Positions 556-18,408 of a DNA stretch of 21,702 nt are shown here, piece by piece. The stretch is from a virus, in IMG/VR virus record IMGVR_UViG_3300010885_015292, positions 1-21,702 of that record; one strand, 5' to 3'. The notes under the pieces were generated by a model that saw only the letters and a program-made list of their open reading frames with translations, had not been told where the DNA came from and made no database searches. The translations under genes and the position numbers were made by a program. The first letter of the stretch is position 1; every line of letters begins with the position of its first letter.

Positions 556-1896
556 GGATGATTCAGATATAGTAGATTCTGGAGCAGTATTATAATTTAC
601 GATTGTGTTATTTAAATTACTAAATGAACCATTATCCTGATTTATTGATGATATCGAATTATCAACTGCACTTGATGAATCATATTGAATGTTGTCTATA
701 TTATTTGTAGTATTCACTGATGTAATTGAGTTTGGAAAATTATTTCCCAATTTCGAAATTGTAGTATTTGCACCAATATTACTTGATGACAGTGAATTTT
801 CATTTGAATAATTATTTGATGATGCTACATTTAAGGTATTGTCATTTAAATAATTTTCTAAGGATATAGGATTGGTATTTAAGATTGTATCTATATTGTT
901 CGATACTTTTACATTATTATTACTGTGCAAATATTGTACTGGATGATTTGTCATTCCTATACCACTATTGGTTAAGGAAGTTAGATTAGATTCTATATTG
1001 TCAGAAGATCTATAATTACTATTGATGTTTATAGGTGTATTATTATTTAATATTCTATTATTATAATTTTTATTATGTTTTGCATGTGATCGCAAAATAT
1101 GATTTTGTACAATATTATCTGTATATTTTATGTTGGAATTTTCATTATCAATTATTAAAGACGAACCATTTGTTATGAAATCATATGGATATTTTGTAAT
1201 AAATGACATACTATATTCATTTGATGTATTGTCAAATTGTTTAGTATCACTACTAGTGGTCGGATGAACATCCAAACCATATGAGTCGTTCAAGTAATTT
1301 GAAATATAATTGATATTGGGTTTTAATTGGTATTTATTATTATAAAGTAGATGTGATTGTATATGTGTAGTATCGACTACAGATGGAGTAGAAGATACAG
1401 TATCTACAGAAGAACTAATATTATTATTTCTTGTTTCTATTTTTTGATTATTTATTATATTTTCTGGATTGACAATCTTTTTAATTCCGTGGAATTCAAC
1501 GGGATTAAAATTAATCACATTAGATATACCACTATTAATATGTTTTAATTGATCGTCAATTTTATAAAATGTAGATTCTTCTCCACCTAATATATTTTTG
1601 GTGATATCTATCTCATCGTTTTTTTTTATATTAATACTATAATTTTTTCCACCATCTATTAATTTAATAGGTGCTGACGAATAGTTGTTTCGTTGATCTA
1701 AATTTATATTGATATTTACATTTTTATCAGATCCACCAGATACCGATCCAGATCCAGATTCAGAAGTCGATACACCATTGTTAACGAGATCTAGACTAGA
1801 AGGCTGAATGTTCGACTGTGAACGCAAAGATAGAGAGTTAGAAAAAATATTTAAAATTTCATTTTTCAAACTGTCTAAATTTTTATTTTCGATCAT
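1..1896 (-). CDS. Asn/Ser-rich repeat protein, 3' end cut by window edge; putative tape measure protein
   Basis: The minus strand is open for all 632 codons from an ATG at 1896 to the left edge, so the C-terminus is missing. The start overlaps the stop of the gp51-like frame as ATGA and has an AGGAAAG-type ribosome site just upstream. Residues 1-35 are mixed, residues 45-60 are Gly/Ser-rich (SGSGSVSGGSD), and the rest is dominated by Asn, Ser, Thr and Ile. From about residue 450 it becomes a repeat array of seven-residue modules (DALNVVN, DSLASTN, NFSSSSN). I recognise no domain. In tailed phages the gene directly after the frameshifting chaperone pair is normally the tape measure protein (gp29 in T4), so this is the inferred role. 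Against it, tape measures are usually helical, while this part looks disordered; the helical part could lie beyond the edge. It could instead be another structural protein. Confidence 0.75.
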   Translation of the reverse strand, partial: MIENKNLDSLKNEILNIFSNSLSLRSQSNIQPSSLDLVNNGVSTSESGSGSVSGGSDKNVNININLDQRNNYSSAPIKLIDGGKNYSINIKKNDEIDITKNILGGEESTFYKIDDQLKHINSGISNVINFNPVEFHGIKKIVNPENIINNQKIETRNNNISSSVDTVSSTPSVVDTTHIQSHLLYNNKYQLKPNINYISNYLNDSYGLDVHPTTSSDTKQFDNTSNEYSMSFITKYPYDFITNGSSLIIDNENSNIKYTDNIVQNHILRSHAKHNKNYNNRILNNNTPININSNYRSSDNIESNLTSLTNSGIGMTNHPVQYLHSNNNVKVSNNIDTILNTNPISLENYLNDNTLNVASSNNYSNENSLSSSNIGANTTISKLGNNFPNSITSVNTTNNIDNIQYDSSSAVDNSISSINQDNGSFSNLNNTIVNYNTAPESTISESSIISNNFSSSSNDALNVVNDSLASTNNFSSSSNDSIASTNNFSSSSNDSIASTNNFSSSSTDALNVVNDSLSSTNNFSSSSNDSLASTNNFSTSNDPLASTNNFSSSSNDTLNVVNDSLASTNNFSSSSNDTLNVVNDSLASTNNFSTSNDSIASTNNFSSSSNDALNVVNDSISSTNNFSSSTND

Positions 1897-2057
1897 CTAT
1901 ATCTCTTTCCTGTTTGTAATGACATATCATTTTTCTTATTGGCCAATCTATTATTTTCATTTTCTATGTGCTCCCTCAGTAGTTCCACATACATGTCTCT
2001 TTCCCAAGGTATTAGACTTTCCATCTCGGTCAAAGAATACTTGTAAAGATGAATCAT
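1893..2057 (-). CDS. gp51-like tail assembly chaperone domain (probably made as a frameshift fusion)
   Basis: A 54-codon frame follows the gp26-like gene. It carries the pattern Y-S-L-T-E-M-E-S-L-I-P-W-E-R-D-M-Y-V-E-L-L (residues 7-27), a helix-rich signature like the downstream (T or E') domain of tail assembly chaperone pairs and like T4 gp51. The tail end is charged (REHIENENNRLANKK). The ATG at 2057 has no recognisable ribosome site. The same frame is open upstream to 2111, exactly at the -1 slippery heptamer in the gp26-like gene, adding residues RISLSHISLGSYFELVFK before the Met. I therefore infer expression mainly as a 307-aa fusion (235 residues of gp26 plus 72). Its stop overlaps the start of the next gene as ATGA. 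T4 gp51 is a separate protein, so assignment to gp51 is by position and motif only. Confidence 0.75.
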   Translation of the reverse strand: MIHLYKYSLTEMESLIPWERDMYVELLREHIENENNRLANKKNDMSLQTGKRYR

Positions 2058-2104
2058 CTTGAATACTAGTTCAAAATATGAACCAAGTGATATGTGGCTG
2101 AGGC

Positions 2105-2815
2105 TTATCCGAAAAAATCTTTAATTCCTTTTAGAATTATACTTCGTTCTACTCCATCTGATGTTTTATAACTAACTTCATGTTCTATTCTGGGCATTGT
2201 TGCAAAAAATTTGATTATTTGATCAAATTGAATTTTTGTCATATTATCCACAAAATCTTTTAATTCCTCACTAGTAGAATCCTTTGCCATTATTCTTTGA
2301 TCGGGAGTATCAATATAATCAATGCAAGAAACTGCTAAATCATAAAAATCTAATAGTTGCATACTCTCGACTTCATTTTCAATAAACAATGAAATGCTAG
2401 GGTATTTCATTTTAATCATTAGTTCATTTGAAATTTTTAACTCAGTAAAATGATTATCAAATGTCTTTACTTTTATATCTTCGAGATTGATAACCAGTTT
2501 TACATTTTGTTTAGTTACAGGACATTCTAATATCGGTGTGACTACTTCCAGTACAGATTTAGATCTTAATTTAATAAAAAGATATTCTAAATCAAAAATT
2601 GGAAGAGTGGCAGCATCGGGTAATCCTTCATAGCATTCATTTACAATTGATACTATTGCTTGATGGATTTCATTTTCCTTTCCTGTTTCCTGTGCTATAA
2701 GTAGCATTTTTTCTTCTTTTACAATAAATGGCCTAAACCATACAGTTTTATTAGTTGATGGTATTTTTGTTTGATATTTTGGTGATGTTTTTTTTAATAA
2801 ATCTACTAGTGTCAT
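2105..2815 (-). CDS. 26: gp26-like baseplate hub / tail assembly chaperone
   Basis: This 236-aa protein matches the T4 gp26 family (T4_baseplate, PF12322) by pattern: an FRPF-VKEEKMLL block (residues 27-39), a Cys-containing helix at 51-62, DLEYLF (75-80), and LRSKSVLE (83-90), followed by a segment with a CPV motif (98-100) that in relatives lies in a small beta domain. In T4, gp26 helps hub assembly around the tape measure and is not a simple structural subunit. The start has a good ribosome site (GGAG at 2822-2825). The gene sits between the tube-initiator-like gene and the gp51-like frame, matching the T4 26-51 neighbourhood. Its last codons are GAT TTT TTC GGA TAA, which contain an in-frame slippery heptamer immediately before the stop. 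It is very likely a tail chaperone with a frameshifted long form. Confidence 0.85.
   Translation of the reverse strand: MTLVDLLKKTSPKYQTKIPSTNKTVWFRPFIVKEEKMLLIAQETGKENEIHQAIVSIVNECYEGLPDAATLPIFDLEYLFIKLRSKSVLEVVTPILECPVTKQNVKLVINLEDIKVKTFDNHFTELKISNELMIKMKYPSISLFIENEVESMQLLDFYDLAVSCIDYIDTPDQRIMAKDSTSEELKDFVDNMTKIQFDQIIKFFATMPRIEHEVSYKTSDGVERSIILKGIKDFFG
2111..2117 (-). promoter_or_regulatory. Predicted -1 ribosomal frameshift site T TTT TTC
   Basis: The zero-frame codons TTT TTC preceded by T form an X XXY YYZ heptamer two codons before the gp26 stop. After a -1 slip both tRNA-Phe molecules re-pair on TTT TTT. The next codons (CGG ATA AGC CTC...) stay open through 72 residues into the gp51-like frame. 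A Shine-Dalgarno-like AAGGA at 2126-2130 lies 8 nt before the heptamer, similar in placement to the stimulator of the E. coli dnaX frameshift. No convincing downstream pseudoknot is visible; only a weak 5-bp hairpin (2069-2083) is present, well downstream. Confidence 0.75.
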
Positions 2816-2829
2816 AATAACTCCATATT

Positions 2830-3444
2830 TTAGAAAAATTTATATTGTTTGAATGCAAACACAACTACAAATGTTCCATATCCAGTGGATTCCGATGAAA
2901 GTGAAGTTGGTGTTATTGAAACAGGATATGCATCTTGCATTAAAACTGCACAAGTTTCTTGACTATTGTCAGATGCATCCAATGTAGATACTAATATAGT
3001 ACCTAATTGTTTATCTCTCGTATTTGAATAATCAGAATATTGATTCGCAGATACTTCACTACTAAATGGATTACTAAAGAATGGAACAAGTGCCTTTAGA
3101 ATACCAATACCATCAACACTAGATGGTTCTGTAGCTGTTACGGGAATAACCATATCCATCCATCTCTCAAAGTATCTTCTTTCATACCAATCTTGATATA
3201 TTATAAAGGTCATTGCACATTCGCCATATTCTCTACGAATTGGTATTTGTTCTGTTGGGCCCCAATATGAAAATGGAACTTGAACGAATGATCTTTGTGG
3301 TAAAGTTACAGATTCTGGATAACAGAATATTGGTTGTAAACTAGGATCAACAAATGTACATTTATATCTAGATACTTGTTGAATACCTTTATTATCTAGA
3401 ACTCTTTGTCTAAAATTGGTTATTGTATTTGCGGTTCTGTCCAT
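2830..3444 (-). CDS. gp54/gp19-family tail-tube or tube-initiator protein
   Basis: A 204-aa protein with the tail-tube-fold pattern of the T4 gp19/gp54 group: YPESVTLPQRS (residues 42-52), GPTEQIPIR (62-70), an Asp-Trp-containing strand-helix at 79-99 ending in RWMDMVIP, and a C-terminal hairpin (Asp-Ala-Tyr-Pro-Val-Ser-Ile, then a hydrophobic strand ending KQYKFF). T4 gp54 (320 aa) starts the tail tube on the baseplate, and this shorter version keeps the tube core. Its ATG overlaps the stop of the gp4-like gene as TAATG, with AAGAGGA upstream as ribosome site, and it is followed after 14 nt by the gp26-like gene. The baseplate-side context argues for a tube initiator over the major tube protein. 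The two are homologous and I cannot separate them with certainty. Confidence 0.7.
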   Translation of the reverse strand: MDRTANTITNFRQRVLDNKGIQQVSRYKCTFVDPSLQPIFCYPESVTLPQRSFVQVPFSYWGPTEQIPIRREYGECAMTFIIYQDWYERRYFERWMDMVIPVTATEPSSVDGIGILKALVPFFSNPFSSEVSANQYSDYSNTRDKQLGTILVSTLDASDNSQETCAVLMQDAYPVSITPTSLSSESTGYGTFVVVFAFKQYKFF

Positions 3445-3875
3445 TAAAACAAATCCTCTTCCGTTAGTATTTTAAATTTTATATTTTTATCTTTACAAAA
3501 ATTTGAAGCAGATTTCCATTTTGCTTCATTGATTTTGTATACCATGCTTTCTTGAAGAAATGTATTTTTTTTCTTTTTACCCAGTTTTGGTTCTTTTGTT
3601 TGTTTTTTTGGTTTAATTTCTATTATTATGGTTTCTATAGTTCCACTTTTATCTTTAGTTTCTATGATAAAATCTGGTATATAATTATGCATCTTATTAT
3701 CAATAGGAGATAAATACGGTATCTTTAAAGATTCAAATGCCCAGCGTATTATATTTTTATTTGTATCTAAATATTTACAAAATTTTCTTTCCCATAAAGA
3801 ACGGCATGAAATTATTTTTATATTACCTATATACTTTGAAGGGTTCTCTGGTGTATATTTTGTCTTGTATGCCAT
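3444..3875 (-). CDS. 4: gp4-like head completion protein (nuclease fold)
   Basis: A 143-aa protein, close to T4 gp4 (150 aa). In T4 the head completion protein acts on filled heads before the tail joins. The sequence shows a TnsA/restriction-endonuclease-like layout: SLWERKF with Glu29, a Pro-Tyr segment (53-54), HNYIPDF with Asp68, then EIKPKK with Glu86 and Lys88, which form the PD...ExK catalytic pattern. All expected catalytic residues are present, so it should be active. It is the first gene of the leftward operon, 35 bp from the divergent gp48-like gene. No clear ribosome site precedes the ATG, so initiation may be from a very short leader. This is the only head gene in an otherwise tail-only window. 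Confidence 0.85.
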   Translation of the reverse strand: MAYKTKYTPENPSKYIGNIKIISCRSLWERKFCKYLDTNKNIIRWAFESLKIPYLSPIDNKMHNYIPDFIIETKDKSGTIETIIIEIKPKKQTKEPKLGKKKKNTFLQESMVYKINEAKWKSASNFCKDKNIKFKILTEEDLF

Positions 3876-5719: not shown

Positions 5720-8700
5720 ATGGAATATAATGTAACAGACAATACCCCAAGCCCATTTCCATCATTTCTCCAAGAGATAAATTTTTATGATAAAAATTAT
5801 CCAAAGACTGATGATTCCGATTCTGGTAGTTTACTTACTGGTACGGATAAAGGAACAAAGGTGGATGGCAAGAAATATATTCTTTTTAACGATAAGCTAA
5901 CTGGTTCTGGCTATGGTTTGAGTTCATTGCTTTCATTGGAAATAACAGAATCAATATTTACACCATATATGGCAGGAACATTAAAATTATATGATGAATA
6001 TAATTTAATAGAAACTGTAAATTTTACTGGAAATGAAACTATTGAAATAGTTTTCCAACTTCGTAGTATTGATGATCCAATAAAATTAAAATTTAGAGTG
6101 ATATCTGCAAAAGCAATTAGTAATATCGCCACACAAGATAGAATCAATTATATAGAACCAGTTAGAGTGTATAGTCTTGAATTCATTTCTGAAGAAATTT
6201 TTAATAGTACATTTACAGATGCATTTTTAAAGGATTATAAAGATTTTATTGGTTATATTGCAACATCTAATAATGAATCAACATTAACCAATAATGGTGA
6301 TACTGTAGAAATAAAAGGGTTAGTAAATGAAATTGCAAAACAATTAAAATTAGAACCAATTTATATCGAAGGAACAAAAAACGGTATATGGCTAAAGCAC
6401 AATGAAATTTCATATCCAAGTGGAAAGGATCATGGACAATATTCATTTGCAAATTTATTGCAACAAGTATCAAATTATGCAGTTTCAATGGAAAATCCAA
6501 ATGCTGTTAATTATTTCTTCTGGAGAGATAGACAAGGTTGGAATTTTAAATCTATTGAAAATTTAATAAAAATAGGAAAATTTAAAAAAGCATTAACTAC
6601 TTTTGCAGAACTTGGTGGCGCATTTGTAGATGATGGATTTCTAGAAGAAAATAAAATTCAACAATTTATACTTGAGAGTGATGATGAAAAAAATCCATAT
6701 AAGATATGGAGTGCTGTTTCCCTCACTCAACTCGATAGTATGAAACAATATACTCAAAAAGCTTATTCTGCATATTACAGAGCAATAAAACCAAATTTTA
6801 ATGATCCATATTCTAATTTTTTGGATACTACTGAAGGATTCACTGGTGGTATTGTGGATTATGATTATCATAGAGATTATGAGAAAGTTTCTCATATTGA
6901 AGAATATAAATTAATTTCTGATGATATTGAAACTAGTCCTACTTTAATTAAAAATGAAAATAATAAATTCATACCAAAACAATTACCAATACCTGCATTC
7001 AGATATGGTGATGATTCTGTCTTTGGTTTCTATGATAACATGAGATATAATGTTCCGTTTGGTCAATGGGTATATAATTCAACAGATATGGGATTTGGTA
7101 AGAAAGTAGATAATCCAGCAGTAGTATGGTGGGATTATTTGGGAAGAAGTGGCGACTCTCGTTGGTCAAATACTGTATGGCAGCCACAATATGATATGAC
7201 TGATTTAGATGTAAAAATATTACATAAAATCAATAAAAATATCAGAGAACCGTTGAGACAAAAAAGACAAAAATTCGTAGAACAAAAAAATATAAAAAGA
7301 AAATGGGAAGTATATCGCTGTGCAGTTTGTTGCCTAGAAGGTGGTGTCATTGGTGGAACTGCGGATGCAGCACTGATAAACCAATTTCAAGGAATAAGTG
7401 GTACTACCTATAATATCCTATTTGGTGCGACTGGTATTTTTTCAGAACTTGAGCAAGAATATAAACTAGTTGCGGCTGGTTCATTTACTGATATAATAAA
7501 TTATAATTCAGGAGATACAGCAAGTCAAAATGGTTTGACATTCTCATACGATTTATCAAAATCTCCATACAACGAATCTATAGGAAAATTTTATAATTTT
7601 AATAGTGATCTATCCAATTATGTTAAATATGTATTTGATAGAGGTTTAAATCTTTATGATATATCAATTACAAAAACAGAAGATAGATTATCCAAAGTAG
7701 ATGGTTTTATCACAAATGTCGATGCATATATTGCAAGTATAGACAACTGGATTACTCAACATATCCAACAATGTCCAGAAGAAACAACACCAGATTCAAC
7801 TAATAAATTTTATCCAGGATTTGGTGGCGTAAATAATGGTGAAAGAACAACCAACTCTGGACAAAATATTTCATGTGGAAATAATTCAGATTATTCTGGA
7901 TCATATTCTGCATATCCAAATGGTGGAAAAATACCAAATATTACAATACCAGAAGGAATGTGTTGGAAAACATTTCAATTTTCCTGCCCTGGCTATGATA
8001 ATTATGAACCACTACCAGAGTTTGTTACTGTATGTTCTCAAGATATAACAGCTGGACCAATTGAAGTAAACAATAATTATGTATCATTGATTGATGGATA
8101 TTACTATCGTTATTATAATCTATATTCAGATTACTACGAATGGTCATATCAATGGCAAATGAATAGTTATTATGAAGCCAATAATGAACCAGGCGAACTA
8201 AAAAGATGTATTGATGCTGGTGATTGTTATAATACTGTATGTTTTAATCCAATTGCTCTTGAAATTCAAAAGAGAATGGCAATAAATGAGAGAAAGGCAA
8301 TATATGTTCAACTTCAATTATTGAAATACTCTAGAGATTTAGTTTCTACACAATTACTTCCCAAGTGGTTAAATCAATATACAGAATGGTATAACAGAGA
8401 AGCATTCTTCTTCTCGAAACAACCAGGCACAAGTATATTTACGGGTATTACTGGTGGTAGAACTGGGCCAATGAAGCAATCACTGTCATTATATAATATC
8501 AAAAGCATAACCCGAAAAGAAATGAAAGGTAGTCGTTATGAAATACTTGCTCGTTCTAAAGGTATAACTGGTTCTGCAATGGGTGAATGGGTATATGATA
8601 TATTCTTTGGTAATGATCCAAATGTTAATTCATTAATAAAGCATCCATATTATGATCAAGGGTATTCTGATAAAAATGGTAAAGGTTCTTTCATTACTCA

Positions 8701-10651
8701 AAGAAATGCTCATTATGTGTATTCATTTGAAGATGCCAATCCAGAAAATAATCCACCATGGCAATCTCAATATGCAGAAGAGGCTATAGATCCTTCAGAA
8801 TTTACAGAACGAGCATATAGTGCATTTCCTCCCAATGTTGTAGATGGAAAACCTGGGTTTACCAAATATAAATTAGCATCAGATGATTTAAATAGTTTAT
8901 CTGGATTTACAGATGATGGATTTAGAGAAACCTTTAATGTATTCACAAATGATTTGACGAATCAAAAACCACCAAATATAAAAAAGGAAGAATTATCATC
9001 ATATGTTCGTATAGAATTTGAAACTCCAATTGGTTTGGATAGAATTGGTGATTTTCCAAATGGATTTGTTAGAGATGCTGGTATAGAATACTTTCTACCA
9101 TATCTCGTCCAACTAACACCTGGACCAAATGGCAGACAAGCAACACGAAATAATATTGCAGTAATAGGTATGGATCCATATGGATTTGATGTTGCAATTA
9201 AAAAACATAAAGTAAATGACGATCAACAGAATAAATCAAGAAATTATTGGTGGTGGAAAGAAACACCAATAAACACAGGTCTTAGCGAAAATAGCATGGA
9301 TCTTTGGCCAGAGATTGGTTTTGAGACTAGTAGACCATATTATACTTCAGATCCAAAGGGATTCTGGAATAATACAGCAGAAGCAAAGGACTATTATGGA
9401 TATAGTGAATATGGAGACTGGTGGGACTATAGTAGCAATAAAGCACATTGGACCTCGTCGGTAGATCCAGAATATAAATTATCTTCTCTTGGTAGTAACT
9501 ATATAAATTCTTCTCATAATAAAATAAAACCACATAGATCATGGTGGTCATTTCATTTCCCTAAAAATGTTTTTGTTCCTCAAAGATTTTTTGGTGCATT
9601 TAATACTATGTTTAGTGGATGGTATGAAGGATTTTATAGTGGTGCATATTTCACATATGGATATTGGAACTACCAGTGGTGGTATGGTGAAGAGGTAGAA
9701 CGATGGCTCCGACTTGCAGATACACCTGATACTCAGGAATTGTTATCACAAGCAAATATGAATAATCTCCTCATGCCAAATACAAATGATGGTTTTGCGG
9801 AAGCAATGGATGTTTATACTCCAACTTCGATAGAAGATATGCATCCAGACTTAAAGAAATATTTTACTAATACATCATTACATTGGTTTAATTCCGATTA
9901 TACTGTTTATAGACCTGGTCTGATTGCTTCAGATGTATGGAAATATGATCTAAGTGGCGAAACCGAATACGGTCTAATTACACCTCCAACCTTAGAACCA
10001 AATTATGATATATTTGATAATAATTTTGCTGCACAATTTGTTGTGTTTGGTAGATCGACTAGTCTATGTGCTAGATTTACATGTGCAAATCCAAATGGAA
10101 AAGTTGAAAACAAAAATTGCCCAGAAGAAAATCCATATTGCAATTGTCCAGCACAAGAACACATGCCAGAGGAAAGAGAACCAAGTTATCTAGAACTTTA
10201 TCAACTATATAATGAATTAAGAGAATGCGATCTAATAGAAGAACATCTAGGAGAAGAGTATCTTGGATGTGTATGGATTGATCCAAATAATCCATGTAGC
10301 TGTAATTGTCCAGAAATTGGTAAGAAATTTCCAGAATATTTAGAATATACAAAAACATATGCAACATATTGGGACACACCAAAAGACACACCGTTAATTA
10401 GAAATGCTCAGATTGCTCAATTTATGTCGCAACAAGTAACTATTTCTATTGCACCCAATAGAAATATAAAAATTGGTGATCTAATTAAGGTAGTTCATAA
10501 AAAACTTATTGAGGATGAAATTCCAGGTGATGCAAAAAGATTTGATGGATACTGGATGGTAACAGAAATAAGACATATTTTTACAGAAGAAACAAGTCAG
10601 CATATGCAGTTAGTTTTAAATAGAGACAGTATACCAAGAAAAGCAAATTAA
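5720..10651 (+). CDS. Giant gp27-like central baseplate hub protein with large insertion
   Basis: A 1643-aa protein. Residues about 70-280 look like the first domains of the gp27/gpD hub family (ITESIFTPYMAGTLKLYDEY, then a strand-rich region and a FANLLQQVSNYAVS helix). The last 75 residues look like the C-terminal hub barrel (NRNIKIGDLIKVV, then DGYWMVTEIRH and a QLVLNRDS end). Between them lie over 1000 residues not seen in T4 gp27 (391 aa): CAVCC at about 533, a Cys-rich block at 684-840, a helical charged segment at 840-895, Trp/Tyr-rich stretches near 794-813 and 1270-1330, and a second Cys block at 1449-1530 (YCNC, CSCNC). No gp5-type lysozyme domain is recognised. Position between gp53 and gp25 supports a hub or spike role. 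Large hub-region proteins in cyanophages (some annotated VrlC) may be relatives, but I could not verify this. The ribosome site before ATG is weak. Confidence 0.7.
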   Translation: MEYNVTDNTPSPFPSFLQEINFYDKNYPKTDDSDSGSLLTGTDKGTKVDGKKYILFNDKLTGSGYGLSSLLSLEITESIFTPYMAGTLKLYDEYNLIETVNFTGNETIEIVFQLRSIDDPIKLKFRVISAKAISNIATQDRINYIEPVRVYSLEFISEEIFNSTFTDAFLKDYKDFIGYIATSNNESTLTNNGDTVEIKGLVNEIAKQLKLEPIYIEGTKNGIWLKHNEISYPSGKDHGQYSFANLLQQVSNYAVSMENPNAVNYFFWRDRQGWNFKSIENLIKIGKFKKALTTFAELGGAFVDDGFLEENKIQQFILESDDEKNPYKIWSAVSLTQLDSMKQYTQKAYSAYYRAIKPNFNDPYSNFLDTTEGFTGGIVDYDYHRDYEKVSHIEEYKLISDDIETSPTLIKNENNKFIPKQLPIPAFRYGDDSVFGFYDNMRYNVPFGQWVYNSTDMGFGKKVDNPAVVWWDYLGRSGDSRWSNTVWQPQYDMTDLDVKILHKINKNIREPLRQKRQKFVEQKNIKRKWEVYRCAVCCLEGGVIGGTADAALINQFQGISGTTYNILFGATGIFSELEQEYKLVAAGSFTDIINYNSGDTASQNGLTFSYDLSKSPYNESIGKFYNFNSDLSNYVKYVFDRGLNLYDISITKTEDRLSKVDGFITNVDAYIASIDNWITQHIQQCPEETTPDSTNKFYPGFGGVNNGERTTNSGQNISCGNNSDYSGSYSAYPNGGKIPNITIPEGMCWKTFQFSCPGYDNYEPLPEFVTVCSQDITAGPIEVNNNYVSLIDGYYYRYYNLYSDYYEWSYQWQMNSYYEANNEPGELKRCIDAGDCYNTVCFNPIALEIQKRMAINERKAIYVQLQLLKYSRDLVSTQLLPKWLNQYTEWYNREAFFFSKQPGTSIFTGITGGRTGPMKQSLSLYNIKSITRKEMKGSRYEILARSKGITGSAMGEWVYDIFFGNDPNVNSLIKHPYYDQGYSDKNGKGSFITQRNAHYVYSFEDANPENNPPWQSQYAEEAIDPSEFTERAYSAFPPNVVDGKPGFTKYKLASDDLNSLSGFTDDGFRETFNVFTNDLTNQKPPNIKKEELSSYVRIEFETPIGLDRIGDFPNGFVRDAGIEYFLPYLVQLTPGPNGRQATRNNIAVIGMDPYGFDVAIKKHKVNDDQQNKSRNYWWWKETPINTGLSENSMDLWPEIGFETSRPYYTSDPKGFWNNTAEAKDYYGYSEYGDWWDYSSNKAHWTSSVDPEYKLSSLGSNYINSSHNKIKPHRSWWSFHFPKNVFVPQRFFGAFNTMFSGWYEGFYSGAYFTYGYWNYQWWYGEEVERWLRLADTPDTQELLSQANMNNLLMPNTNDGFAEAMDVYTPTSIEDMHPDLKKYFTNTSLHWFNSDYTVYRPGLIASDVWKYDLSGETEYGLITPPTLEPNYDIFDNNFAAQFVVFGRSTSLCARFTCANPNGKVENKNCPEENPYCNCPAQEHMPEEREPSYLELYQLYNELRECDLIEEHLGEEYLGCVWIDPNNPCSCNCPEIGKKFPEYLEYTKTYATYWDTPKDTPLIRNAQIAQFMSQQVTISIAPNRNIKIGDLIKVVHKKLIEDEIPGDAKRFDGYWMVTEIRHIFTEETSQHMQLVLNRDSIPRKAN

Positions 10652-14016: not shown

Positions 14017-15765
14017 ATGTCTGTAAAATCGGATAAAGTTCAAAAATATATCTCAGAAATAGGAAGTAAAACTCAAAAATATTTACTCCTTGGAAAAAGC
14101 AGAACTTCATCTGCTACAGATAATAGCAATACATCATCTATTAATTTATGGAGAGATTCACAAATTACTTATAGAATTGGAAAAAATGATGTCGTTGGTG
14201 TTGTTCCTAATGTATCATGGAATAAAAGCACAGTATATACTCCATGGAGTTCTTCTGGTATAAATACTGGTTCATTCTATAGTCACAATAAATCTAACGG
14301 AATAGTCTATCTTTGTTTATCTGACAATAGTAAAAATAGAAAAGATTTACGGGGAAAAAGTGCTTCCACAATAGCACCATCACATGAAACGGGTGTTCAG
14401 AGATATGCTGATGGATATGAGTGGCTTGCTCTTTATAAAATAACACCTTCTTTGAGTAGATTTGTTAGTTCTTCATGGATTCCTGTAATATCTTTAAATG
14501 ATTTTCAATTTGATACTACTATTACAAAATATTCACAGGTATTGAATTTTTGTAGTGGAGAAACAGGTGCTTGTGGTAATTGTGGTGTATATGTTAAGGA
14601 AAATACCCAATTACCCGCAACAGCATCGACTAATACTACTTATCTATCTGGAGAGTTATATACTACTCTGACAGATGTATTTTGTTATGATTGCTTTACT
14701 ATGTTTGATGATGATGATAATTTTGTTTCTATATTCTATGGATCAGATGCTTCTGAATCGTCAATTACCATAAATGATAAATTAACAGAGATAGGAGAAT
14801 ATGTAAATAATAATCAATTAGCACCAAGTTCTCCATATAATCAGCTATATAAAATGGCAATCAATAGTCCAGAAGATGGTGCATTATTATCTTGTTTTAT
14901 AGATTTATCTTCATTTAGTGAAAATGATCTAATAGTAACAGCAGCAAATCCAGAATTTACCATACTTACTGCTACAGGAACTGGTGCATCAATACGATTA
15001 ACGACTCATATAAATTCATCTGGTTTATATGTTGTAGATGGAATTGAATTATTAAATAGAGGTTCTGGATATTATGATGTAGATTTAAATCTATCAGAAT
15101 ATCTTTTTCCAAATATAGATGTAGATTTGTTTATATCAACTATAGATTTAAATTTTGATAAAATAGATAGTATAGGAATAGATCCAATATCTACTCTAGA
15201 ATGTAAAAATATTTCTACTGATATACAAATTTCAACAACTCAATTAATAGAAAATAATATAACCATTCCATCACAAATTGATTTTTATGGATTTGTTGAT
15301 AATCCTTTATTAACCACAGATGATGATGAAATCGTCCCTGCGGGAACCACAATAAGCAAATATCAATCATCTATTCAAACAAATAATACAAAAATTCAAA
15401 TAACAAAAACAGGAGGAAGTTCTCCTTCTGTTGGAAGTAATATAGTTTTGAATAATACAAATACTTCCAATATAATGTATGATGTAAATGTAGTAAATGC
15501 TACAAATGAAACAGAAAATGATATAATATTGGAAGTAAATGGTGTAGATACAACGGCACTTACAAATTTCAATACAGCATCAAATGCAATTACAATATAT
15601 GATGGTACAAATTCATATAGTGTATCGGCTTATACTGAAGTACCTCCAATTGTTCAATATAGTGGTAATATATCTGGAACAAAATCAATATCATCTCAAG
15701 TATTAGTATCCGCAAGCGGCGAAGTACCAAAAATAATAAGAATTAATAGAATAGAGGCAATATAA
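14017..15765 (+). CDS. 8: gp8-like baseplate wedge protein with C-terminal extension
   Basis: A 582-aa protein (T4 gp8 is 334 aa). Residues about 1-170 match the gp8 plan: a dense N-terminal helix, W-R-D-S strand, a 'YLCLSDNSKN' strand (about 98-107), then T-G-V-Q-R-Y-A-D-G-Y-E-W-L-A-L-Y-K-I (about 128-146), equivalent to the 'E-P-G-D-G-Y-V-W-E-Y-L-F-E-I' element of T4 gp8. Cys186, Cys189, Cys223 and Cys226 form CGNC-x33-CYDC, which may bind zinc. Beyond residue 310 it has beta-rich repeats, one with the G-x-G-A...G-S-G-Y-Y pattern seen in other phage tail proteins. The ribosome site AGGA lies just before the ATG. gp8 connects wedge core to periphery in T4. Confidence 0.82.
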   Translation: MSVKSDKVQKYISEIGSKTQKYLLLGKSRTSSATDNSNTSSINLWRDSQITYRIGKNDVVGVVPNVSWNKSTVYTPWSSSGINTGSFYSHNKSNGIVYLCLSDNSKNRKDLRGKSASTIAPSHETGVQRYADGYEWLALYKITPSLSRFVSSSWIPVISLNDFQFDTTITKYSQVLNFCSGETGACGNCGVYVKENTQLPATASTNTTYLSGELYTTLTDVFCYDCFTMFDDDDNFVSIFYGSDASESSITINDKLTEIGEYVNNNQLAPSSPYNQLYKMAINSPEDGALLSCFIDLSSFSENDLIVTAANPEFTILTATGTGASIRLTTHINSSGLYVVDGIELLNRGSGYYDVDLNLSEYLFPNIDVDLFISTIDLNFDKIDSIGIDPISTLECKNISTDIQISTTQLIENNITIPSQIDFYGFVDNPLLTTDDDEIVPAGTTISKYQSSIQTNNTKIQITKTGGSSPSVGSNIVLNNTNTSNIMYDVNVVNATNETENDIILEVNGVDTTALTNFNTASNAITIYDGTNSYSVSAYTEVPPIVQYSGNISGTKSISSQVLVSASGEVPKIIRINRIEAI

Positions 15766-16559
15766 TGGCAGGAATAACACCATTCCTTTCGGGAAATACA
15801 CCACTAAAAAATGCACCATATTTTAGTAGAGTAGCAAGTACAAATATAATTGATAGCGTAGATAATGTAAATTATCCAATGCTTGCATTTAAGCCAGGTT
15901 ATGCTCTTCAGGCATCAGAATTAAATGAAATACAAGAAAATTTCTATGTTCAAAAAACTCTATCAGATAATCTTCTTCAAAAATGGTGGAAAACTGGAAC
16001 AAATTTACAACTAACTGGAGTCGCAACAGACTCATTATATGGTCCTGGATGGGAAGGTGTCATACCACTAGATCCACTTCAATTGATTTCTGCTATTATT
16101 CCTCAAGGTAATAATAATATATTGGTATTTAACTCCAATGAAGCTGGTGGATATGCTCCTGGATATCGCTGGTATTTGGTTACAGATCCTACTACTAAAT
16201 TTAAATTCTGGATGAGTATAAATGTAAATGCCATGGGTATTTCTCTATTTACTAGTACTTTACCTCCATTGACATATGTTGGTTTAAAGGTAAATACATC
16301 ATTTGTAAATTGTTCTTCTACAGAAACGGACCCTGGTTATATTTTTAATGATAATTCTTCTGGAAATTATATTCAAAATACATGTGGTGCAAGTAGATAT
16401 AAAATTGCTCCAAAGAACACACCTTGGGTGTCACGAACCACGCTCACGGCCGATTTTCTACCATTATTGAAGATAAGAAAAAATGCTGATACAGCATCGC
16501 AGGGTGTAATTTTAATTCAGTATATGAATAATTATTTAATAGCAAAGACACCTGCATAA
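15765..16559 (+). CDS. Connector-like baseplate periphery protein, paralogue 1
   Basis: A 264-aa protein. Near its N-terminus (residues 42-60) is F-K-P-G-Y-A-L-Q-A-S-E-L-N-E-I-Q-E-N-F, a motif recurring at the start of phage proteins that attach fibres to baseplates (for example proteins with DUF4815-type N-termini). The rest is beta-rich with a Cys (about 182) before a D-P-G-Y-I-F element and ends with a strand QGVILIQYMNNYLI. It is clearly related to the 221-aa protein encoded at 17743-18408, which shares the N-terminal motif, the C-S...GY-x-F-N segment and the G-x-x-L-I-Q-F/Y-x-N-N-Y end. It overlaps gp8 and the protease gene by one base at each side (TAATG). It occupies the place of gp9 in T4 order, but I cannot show homology to gp9. 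Confidence 0.6.
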   Translation: MAGITPFLSGNTPLKNAPYFSRVASTNIIDSVDNVNYPMLAFKPGYALQASELNEIQENFYVQKTLSDNLLQKWWKTGTNLQLTGVATDSLYGPGWEGVIPLDPLQLISAIIPQGNNNILVFNSNEAGGYAPGYRWYLVTDPTTKFKFWMSINVNAMGISLFTSTLPPLTYVGLKVNTSFVNCSSTETDPGYIFNDNSSGNYIQNTCGASRYKIAPKNTPWVSRTTLTADFLPLLKIRKNADTASQGVILIQYMNNYLIAKTPA

Positions 16560-17746
16560 TGTCTGTATTATATTTGGATGACAATACTGCATGTAATAGA
16601 GGAGGTCTTGCTTATGTCAAAGAAAAGCACGACTTATATGTTTGGAATTATGCATCTTGGCCTACCTCCGAACCCATATTTGGAACCGTTCAAATTCCCA
16701 GTTTACATGGAGGATTATTTCCAAATGGATATAATCTAAACAGTTATGCCAACGACACTGCCCCCTTTATTCCAGATTTTAGTGGTAAGAGTATAAGAAT
16801 AAAACGATATGGTGTTCCTCAAGGGAATCTTAATTATATTAATTTTGATTTAACTTATTGTGTGCCCTCAGATTTAAACACAATATCTCCAGATTTATTA
16901 TCAAAAATTACAAATATAGCATATTGGAATAATGGTCAGCCTACTGGTGTACTAATATCCCCAAGACATGTTATTATTTGTGGTCATTTCTTGGGATCAG
17001 GACCAGCAACATATGAATTTTTATTCTTATTAAAGAATGGAACAACGATATCGTGTCCTTCTCAGAAGGTGCTACGAGCGGATGGATCTCCTTTGGTAAC
17101 TGGAGACATGCATGTCTATAGACTAGATCAATCTTTACAAGACTATGTTACTTCAAATTTAATAGCAGTATATAATGATTATTTTGATCCAAACGATATT
17201 GCAGTAGAAACATATTTTAATGCTAATCATAATACTGCTTTTAGTCGTGCAATATCTTGGAGAATATGTGGAGCAGAAAAAATTGTTAGAGGAACTCTTA
17301 ATTTACAGGTAACATCAAATCCACAATACAATTATTATTATATAAACTTTAGAAATAATACAGCAGAACTATATTCTACAAATATTTTTACAAATCAACC
17401 TTATGATGCGTCAGTATTTGTGGGCGACAGTGGTAGTCCATTATTTGTTTATAATAAAACTACAAATAAAACAATATTAATGGGATTGCAATTCGGCGGC
17501 GAATTGACTCATGTAATATCTGCTAATGGTAGTTTAAATTTATTCTCTTTACAAAGTGAATTAGCTACATATGGGTATTCTATGAACAAACTAACACCAT
17601 CTAATGTAGATTTAGTAAGTGTATCTGATTATATTACCGTAGTTCCGAGTACAATAAATCCGATTAACGATATTAATACCTTTAAAAATATCAATACATC
17701 GCCACTATATAAATATCCTTATAGTAGCAGAATTTATAGCAAATGA
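16559..17746 (+). CDS. Chymotrypsin-fold (trypsin-like) serine protease in the tail module
   Basis: A 395-aa protein with a full catalytic triad in the S1 layout. GVLISPRHVIICGHF (residues 130-144) equals the trypsin 'G-x-L-I-S...V-x-T-A-A-H-C' element with His143; GDMHVYRLD (182-190) equals 'D-I-A-L-L-R-L' with Asp183; FVGDSGSPLF (287-296) is the GDSG element with Ser291 as nucleophile. Spacings of 40 and 108 residues fit the fold. Residues 1-120 are an unrecognised N-terminal domain, perhaps for virion attachment, and about 60 residues follow the protease core. There is no signal peptide. Genes on both sides encode paralogous connector-like proteins, with one-base (TAATG) and four-base (ATGA) overlaps. 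Role is inferred: digestion of host surface protein or processing of a tail protein. Related protease-like sequences with 'SPRH' occur in environmental bacteria. Confidence 0.8.
   Translation: MSVLYLDDNTACNRGGLAYVKEKHDLYVWNYASWPTSEPIFGTVQIPSLHGGLFPNGYNLNSYANDTAPFIPDFSGKSIRIKRYGVPQGNLNYINFDLTYCVPSDLNTISPDLLSKITNIAYWNNGQPTGVLISPRHVIICGHFLGSGPATYEFLFLLKNGTTISCPSQKVLRADGSPLVTGDMHVYRLDQSLQDYVTSNLIAVYNDYFDPNDIAVETYFNANHNTAFSRAISWRICGAEKIVRGTLNLQVTSNPQYNYYYINFRNNTAELYSTNIFTNQPYDASVFVGDSGSPLFVYNKTTNKTILMGLQFGGELTHVISANGSLNLFSLQSELATYGYSMNKLTPSNVDLVSVSDYITVVPSTINPINDINTFKNINTSPLYKYPYSSRIYSK
17708..17715 (+). promoter_or_regulatory. Candidate T4-type late promoter TATAAATA
   Basis: An exact match to the T4 late -10 element lies 28 nt before the ATG at 17743, within the end of the protease gene. 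The same octamer occurs inside other genes here because Ile-Asn codons produce it, so chance is a real alternative. Confidence 0.3.
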
Positions 17747-18408
17747 TTAACAATTATTCTCATATTGGTTTTTTACCAAGCAATTCTTTACAATCATCCG
17801 AATTGAATGAAATTCAGGAAAGATTTTATTTAGACCAAACATTACAAAATACTTTTTTATTTAACTGGTTAATTCTAACAGAAAATAATTCTATTATAAC
17901 TGGTCTAGATTCTAGTCCATATTTAGGACCATATGTTACTAATGCTATACCAATAAATCCAAATCTAATAGAAGCATATAAAACTGCTGACAATATTATA
18001 GTGAATTTAAATATTGGTTGGTATAAAATAAATAATTCAATAACAAATAATATAAGTATTTGGTGTTATTTGGATGAAATGAAAACAATATCACTTCCAA
18101 TATCTTCCTCTGCTGGTCTATATACTATTACATTGGATGTTTCATTTACAGATATTCCATGTTCACCCGAAGAATCTGAAGAAGGATATACATTCAATAG
18201 TAATGTTGGTGGTTACATTGAACCATGGATTTTTGGTTCCAATAGATTTAAATTAGTAATAAATGATTTACAAGTAAAATATCCCACAGATCAAACACTA
18301 GATGATTTAACGATTATTAAAATAAGAACTGGTATAGATGGTATTGCATTTGGTAGATTTTTAATACAATTTAATAATAATTACAAAATCAATGATATAA
18401 ATATCTGA
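17743..18408 (+). CDS. Connector-like baseplate periphery protein, paralogue 2
   Basis: A 221-aa protein whose N-terminus F-L-P-S-N-S-L-Q-S-S-E-L-N-E-I-Q-E-R-F-Y (residues 10-29) repeats the motif of the 264-aa protein at 15765-16559. The two remain alignable to the end: a Leu/Trp helix (about 30-45), P-Y-L-G-P-Y-V-T-N-A-I-P-I-N-P versus the W-E-G-V-I-P-L-D-P element, C-S-P-E-E...G-Y-T-F-N versus C-S-S-T-E...G-Y-I-F-N, and G-R-F-L-I-Q-F-N-N-N-Y at the C-terminus. Its N-terminal region is about 30 residues shorter. The ATG overlaps the protease stop (ATGA). Likely a tail periphery protein sharing a fold, and possibly an attachment site, with its paralogue; the pair brackets the protease gene. 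Confidence 0.6.
   Translation: MINNYSHIGFLPSNSLQSSELNEIQERFYLDQTLQNTFLFNWLILTENNSIITGLDSSPYLGPYVTNAIPINPNLIEAYKTADNIIVNLNIGWYKINNSITNNISIWCYLDEMKTISLPISSSAGLYTITLDVSFTDIPCSPEESEEGYTFNSNVGGYIEPWIFGSNRFKLVINDLQVKYPTDQTLDDLTIIKIRTGIDGIAFGRFLIQFNNNYKINDINI
18396..18403 (+). promoter_or_regulatory. Candidate T4-type late promoter TATAAATA before the fibre gene
   Basis: An exact late -10 octamer ends 18 nt before the fibre ATG at 18422. Transcription would begin around 18409, just after the previous stop, leaving a short leader that still contains the strong ribosome site AGAGGA (18411-18416). Placement at a true gene boundary makes this the best promoter candidate in the window, but it is not proven. 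Confidence 0.4.

Follow-up and report, generated by a model that had tools for sequence, protein, structure and literature searches.

Tail assembly chaperones of lambda and of T4-like phages

In phage lambda, a short tail assembly chaperone (gpG) and a low-level -1 frameshift product (gpGT) have their N-terminus in common and are encoded just before the tape measure gene; the locus described here is predicted to encode such a pair, ahead of an ORF in the tape-measure position. Neither the lambda heptamer nor the lambda C-terminal domain is known to be related in sequence to its counterpart at our locus, and the gp26-like protein of the locus, at 236 aa, is larger than lambda gpG, having additional regions, beta-rich and helical, beyond residue 90. 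Frameshifting is said to appear conserved in several T4-like groups, with T4 reportedly using genes 26 and 51.

In an older review, T4 was still given as the exception to otherwise widespread frameshifting (PMC5009743). Tail assembly chaperones of T4-like phages were named by Vladimirov, Gautam and Davidson (Virology 2022, 566:9-15), a study cited in PMC12846349 and PMC10885494. Poly-T signals within the TAC-N genes of such phages are cited in the first of these papers, and the second notes that some T4-like phages have, in place of frameshifting, a short gene together with a longer fusion gene. As far as the 2022 study is represented in the papers citing it, our locus resembles the phages it covers: the gp26 and gp51 families are the short and long chaperone, with a poly-T slip in some phages and two genes in others. 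A difference is that the phage of our locus is uncultivated and that its gp26 is only about 40% identical to cyanophage gp26. In Vandenendeviridae and Andersonviridae, as at our locus, the short chaperone ends with a conserved -1 site and the C-terminal domain is misannotated as a separate gene, but the slip motif is a different one (GTTTTT) and these are other phage families (PMC12846349).

A preliminary description of this DNA proposed a gp26-gp51 fusion. Its central idea had appeared in print by 2022, judging from what the later papers relay of that study (Vladimirov et al., 2022; PMC12846349; PMC10885494), and because the arrangement had been published for T4-like phages the finding is right but not new in kind. 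What is added here is a quantified test at the level of codons and gene copy number, covering about 80 contigs and named phages, and an extension to a marine clade of uncultivated phages. T4 gp26 and gp51, which have long appeared in lists as unconnected hub proteins, would correspond to the short and long chaperone, a pair that lambda produces by frameshifting.

Reading frames of the gp26-like locus

The locus lies on a 21.7-kb viral record bearing T4-type tail genes (the window below is this whole stretch of 21,702 nucleotides). We hold with high confidence that its products are the two tail assembly chaperones of a T4-type myovirus, with the long form made via a -1 slip. The features are:

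3444-3875, minus: gp4-like head closure protein
2830-3444, minus: tail-tube-like protein upstream of gp26 (phrog_45 tail tube, 3.2e-13)
2105-2815, minus: ORF of the 236-aa gp26-like protein (TAC-N, the "G-like" short tail assembly chaperone), from PF12322, phrog_150 and predicted fold
2130-2126, minus: SD-like AAGGA, candidate stimulator 8 nt upstream of the heptamer, from sequence and codon bias in relatives
2117-2111, minus: T TTT TTC, the slippery heptamer, read in the gp26 frame as the last T of GAT plus TTT TTC, from sequence and homologue codons
2107-2105, minus: gp26 stop TAA, from sequence
1893-2117, minus: -1 frame, gp51-like C-terminal domain (TAC-C), from phrog_634, tblastn and substitution pattern
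2066-2086, minus: weak candidate downstream hairpin of GGTTCA..TGAACT type (fold z -1.76; several fold lengths)
2055-2057, minus: earliest ATG in the -1 frame, which falls within the conserved domain and has no SD-like site ahead of it, from sequence
1-1893, minus: next ORF, with Ser/Asn-rich repeats, in the tape-measure position; it starts at 1893 and is cut by the contig end

The gp26-like protein matches PF12322 (T4_baseplate) at 3e-55 over residues 12-235 (187.7 bits against a cut-off of 24.5) and phrog_150 (baseplate hub) at 4.9e-57. The -1 frame peptide matches phrog_634 (baseplate hub assembly catalyst) at 1.1e-19 over residues 2-65. A search of NCBIfam found no model.

The 3' end of gp26 reads GAT TTT TTC GGA TAA, with a single codon (GGA) between heptamer and stop. 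An X XXY YYZ heptamer thus stands shortly 5' of the upstream-frame stop, and its codon choice is kept in relatives. The in-frame heptamer, the SD-like AAGGA upstream, an open -1 frame and a missing ribosome site at that frame's own ATG had all been noted from the sequence, and each was confirmed in the window: the open stretch of the -1 frame starts 13 nt ahead of the gp26 stop and runs to its own terminator at 1893, and no SD-like sequence precedes the ATG at 2057. The likely product, as predicted from the reading frames, is a 307-aa gp26-gp51 fusion (235 + 72 aa, the 72 being the -1 frame residues after FF), the long partner of a G/GT-like pair. The proposal of a gp26-gp51 fusion stands with respect to this predicted length, while its gp51 part, of about 72 aa, is not the full T4 gp51 (249 aa). 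By sequence, the locus has the arrangement of a G/GT pair, with short and long forms that have a common N-terminus and a C-terminal domain that would be reached by a -1 shift.

The incomplete downstream ORF had no match in a PHROG search. In pelagiphage HTVC008M, the tape measure gene is downstream of the chaperone pair, with one small ORF between. Tandem-like repeats (SSTNNFSSSSND) occur in the Ser/Asn-rich ORF of the window; an ORF of 188 aa on the plus strand (29-595) arises from these repeats and is probably spurious.

Coding of the -1 frame and codon choice at the probable slip site

The -1 frame peptide has tblastn matches in 517 phage records. Among the matches listed, most begin at residue 1-2, which is at the heptamer, rather than at the ATG 20 codons later; homology to the gp51 family thus begins upstream of that ATG. 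Between the gp26 stop and the position of the window ATG, single-substitution codon differences among 77 homologues were 8055 synonymous versus 4861 not in the -1 phase, compared with about 2400 versus 14700 in the other two phases. This substitution pattern indicates that the -1 frame is under coding selection ahead of its ATG. In the -1 frame, another stop codon usually lies no more than about 10-60 nt ahead of the gp26 stop (farther in a few relatives), and therefore entry must be near the heptamer.

These observations bear on whether gp26 and a short gp51 could be made separately, by reinitiation at a -1 frame start after the gp26 stop (translational coupling), with the heptamer being incidental. 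The two reading frames do abut, database annotators call gp51 as its own gene, and most cyanophage relatives have a start codon soon after the gp26 stop: in 64 of 78, an ATG, GTG or TTG occurs by codon 13 of the -1 frame, and because of these early starts a short separate gp51 is possible in many cyanophages. An SD-like site accompanies the early start in only 8 cyanophage relatives. In the window and its nearest relatives, however, the earliest -1 frame start is at codon 18-21 and has no SD, and the peptide upstream of it is conserved and under coding selection. Reinitiation also leaves the TTT TTC and NNT codon choice unexplained (see below), and T4 gp51 bears the same domain fused in frame. 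We therefore consider separate synthesis very unlikely. A separate gp51 start was rejected as a candidate feature, as there is no SD-supported start ahead of the conserved domain in the window lineage; the pattern named beforehand as contradicting the fusion (gp51 with its own intact start and a ribosome site) did not turn up in that lineage. In these phages, gp51 is annotated as a small gene of its own but is probably never made alone.

Junctions were taken from about 90 loci, mostly on viral contigs, and dereplicated to 83. The terminal Phe-Phe is encoded by TTT TTC in 80 of 81 dereplicated homologues, and the codon before it is NNT in all 81, although the residue varies (Ser, Asp, Ala, Asn). 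An internal Phe-Phe of the same genes (FFxTM), used as a control, is TTT TTC in 1 of 68. Such agreement at the terminal codons would be vanishingly rare by a chance estimate from general codon usage that treats the sequences as independent; relatedness inflates this estimate, so the internal Phe-Phe is the better yardstick. The heptamer and the open -1 frame, which the preliminary description had proposed to look for in homologues, were found in nearly all relatives (about 80 dereplicated contigs and named phages). The named phages include KVP40, Aeh1, Aeromonas 65, Cronobacter S13 and Cr30, as well as S-PM2, P-SSM2, S-SM1, PhiW-14 and Mendera.

Slippage of RNA polymerase on the T run would give mixed mRNAs, from which the fusion is then read in frame. 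There is a run of six T for this to act upon (eight in HTVC008M), but for transcriptional slippage in bacteria a run of six T with a C after it is short. In most relatives the run is not extended, and the phase-specific NNT TTT TTC together with the SD-like element points to translation; we regard a transcriptional origin as more improbable still than reinitiation. Bare TTTTTTC is uninformative in the window because the DNA is AT-rich (12 copies versus 10.6 expected), and that count is all that favours a chance heptamer beside an unrelated small ORF, a reading of negligible probability that is contradicted by the substitution pattern in the -1 phase and by conservation of the same codons across cyano-, pelagi-, vibrio-, aeromonas- and other T4-type phages. 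By comparison among relatives, the significance of the heptamer rests on its kept position, codon choice and frame.

Variant slip sites with an open -1 frame were observed in Vibrio phage D532 (ACTTTTCA, context A CTT TTC A; L011:2140-2175), in HTVC008M (TTTTTTTT, with eight T; L007:1490-1513) and in one further record (TTTTTTA; L024). The gp51 -1 frame is wholly unannotated in the cyanophage records of S-BM3 (L127) and DSL-LC03 (L128). None of the public records examined has the pair annotated as a joined frameshift product.

Elements around the heptamer

The Glu-Gly codons upstream of the heptamer are GAG GGN in 59 of 81 homologues, and where Glu is GAA the next codon is GGG in 8 of 12. In the same genes, GAG makes up 0.29 of Glu codons and GGG 0.05 of Gly codons. 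An SD-like GAGGG or GAAGGG is thus retained in relatives beyond codon usage. The GAGGG or AAGGG sits about 9-10 nt upstream of the heptamer; in E. coli dnaX, the SD-like element has a comparable spacing upstream of the slip site. As a sequence element, it is a predicted stimulator of frameshifting.

Downstream of the heptamer, the mean fold z is -1.59 versus -0.53 in a control region, and the structure in the window itself is weak. One cyanophage group has an 11-bp stem that begins 5 nt 3' of the heptamer and in which one position shows paired changes (T-A, G-C), and another has a short GGTYCATATGRACC palindrome. The cyanophage hairpin was considered as an element of the window and rejected: it does not carry over.

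T4 gene copies, predicted fold and proposed mechanism

In T4, genes 26 and 51 are on opposite strands. T4 gp51 matches PF12322 (4e-52, residues 1-201) as well as phrog_634 (1.2e-23, residues 147-246), and its 249 aa align end to end with the predicted fusion of the window. Thus, we conclude that T4 encodes the long form in a single frame, as gp51. Both T4 proteins match PF12322, as does gp26 of the window, and the domain order of gp51 is that of the predicted fusion; unlike the window, T4 has two separate genes and a gp26 end without the heptamer. T4 gp26 and gp51 had been taken as a chaperone pair made as separate proteins. The separate genes are borne out, while gp51 proves to be not merely the second half but a complete gp26-like plus gp51 fusion. 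The annotators of KVP40 already noted that its small ORF resembles the C-terminus of T4 gp51.

Gene copy number follows the heptamer. A single PF12322 gene is present in each of the ten named heptamer phages (S-SM1, P-SSM2, S-PM2, S13, Mendera, PhiW-14, Aeromonas 65, Cr30, Aeh1 and KVP40) and in each of the two with heptamer variants (HTVC008M and Vibrio D532). Two are present in each of T4, RB49, Acj9 and RB43, and the heptamer is missing at their gp26 ends. The T4-type lineages may keep one heptamer and, in most of them, an SD-like GAGGG, and may have evolved differing downstream hairpins as stimulators, the ratio of short to long form being tuned by interchangeable parts, and the T4 lineage may then have dropped the slip via a duplicated in-frame copy; we put this forward tentatively, and are inclined to doubt it.

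The two parts of the fusion (gp26 and the C-terminal domain) were modelled apart rather than as one chain. The AlphaFold2 model of gp26 has a pLDDT of 88, and its best match among solved folds is the HK97 tail assembly chaperone gp13 (2ob9; Z 7.8, rmsd 4.1 over 85 residues, 1-88). The next matches are 3klu (Z 7.0), 3fgx (6.8) and 5ir0 (5.1), all at or before residue 98, with unrelated structures from 3.1 down; 3klu and 3fgx have likewise been discussed as members of this tail assembly chaperone family. The match is support rather than proof, because it covers the N-terminal third only and Z is below 8. The proposed link to the general chaperone family is consistent with this model, for which the HK97 chaperone is the top fold match. 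Foldseek against PDB alone gave no significant match for the gp26 model, and a sequence search of solved structures found nothing for gp26. The C-terminal domain is modelled as helices; its matches in the sequence search of solved structures were set aside as weak coiled-coil chance matches.

We infer a mechanism in which most ribosomes would terminate at the gp26 TAA, giving the 236-aa short form. A minority would pair with AAGGA upstream of the heptamer, both tRNA-Phe would re-pair on T TTT TTC with a one-base backward slip, and reading in the -1 frame would give the 307-aa long form bearing the gp51-like helical domain. The two forms may then form a coat on the tape measure protein and bring in tail-tube or hub proteins, like lambda gpG and gpGT. 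In T4, two genes would give the pair, gp26 as the short form and gp51 as a gp26-like domain joined in frame to the C-terminal domain.

Other genes of the window include, within the tail/baseplate gene cluster, one for a protein with a GDSGSPLF sequence (16559-17746, plus) and a weak match to Peptidase_S6 (3.3e-4, below the cut-off). The ORFs flanking this protease-like ORF (15765-16559 and 17743-18408, plus) have a common N-terminal LQxSELNEIQExFY motif and look like paralogues. A 1643-aa tail protein (5720-10651, plus) has a PHROG match (phrog_350) in its N-terminal part only and includes a Cys-rich stretch.
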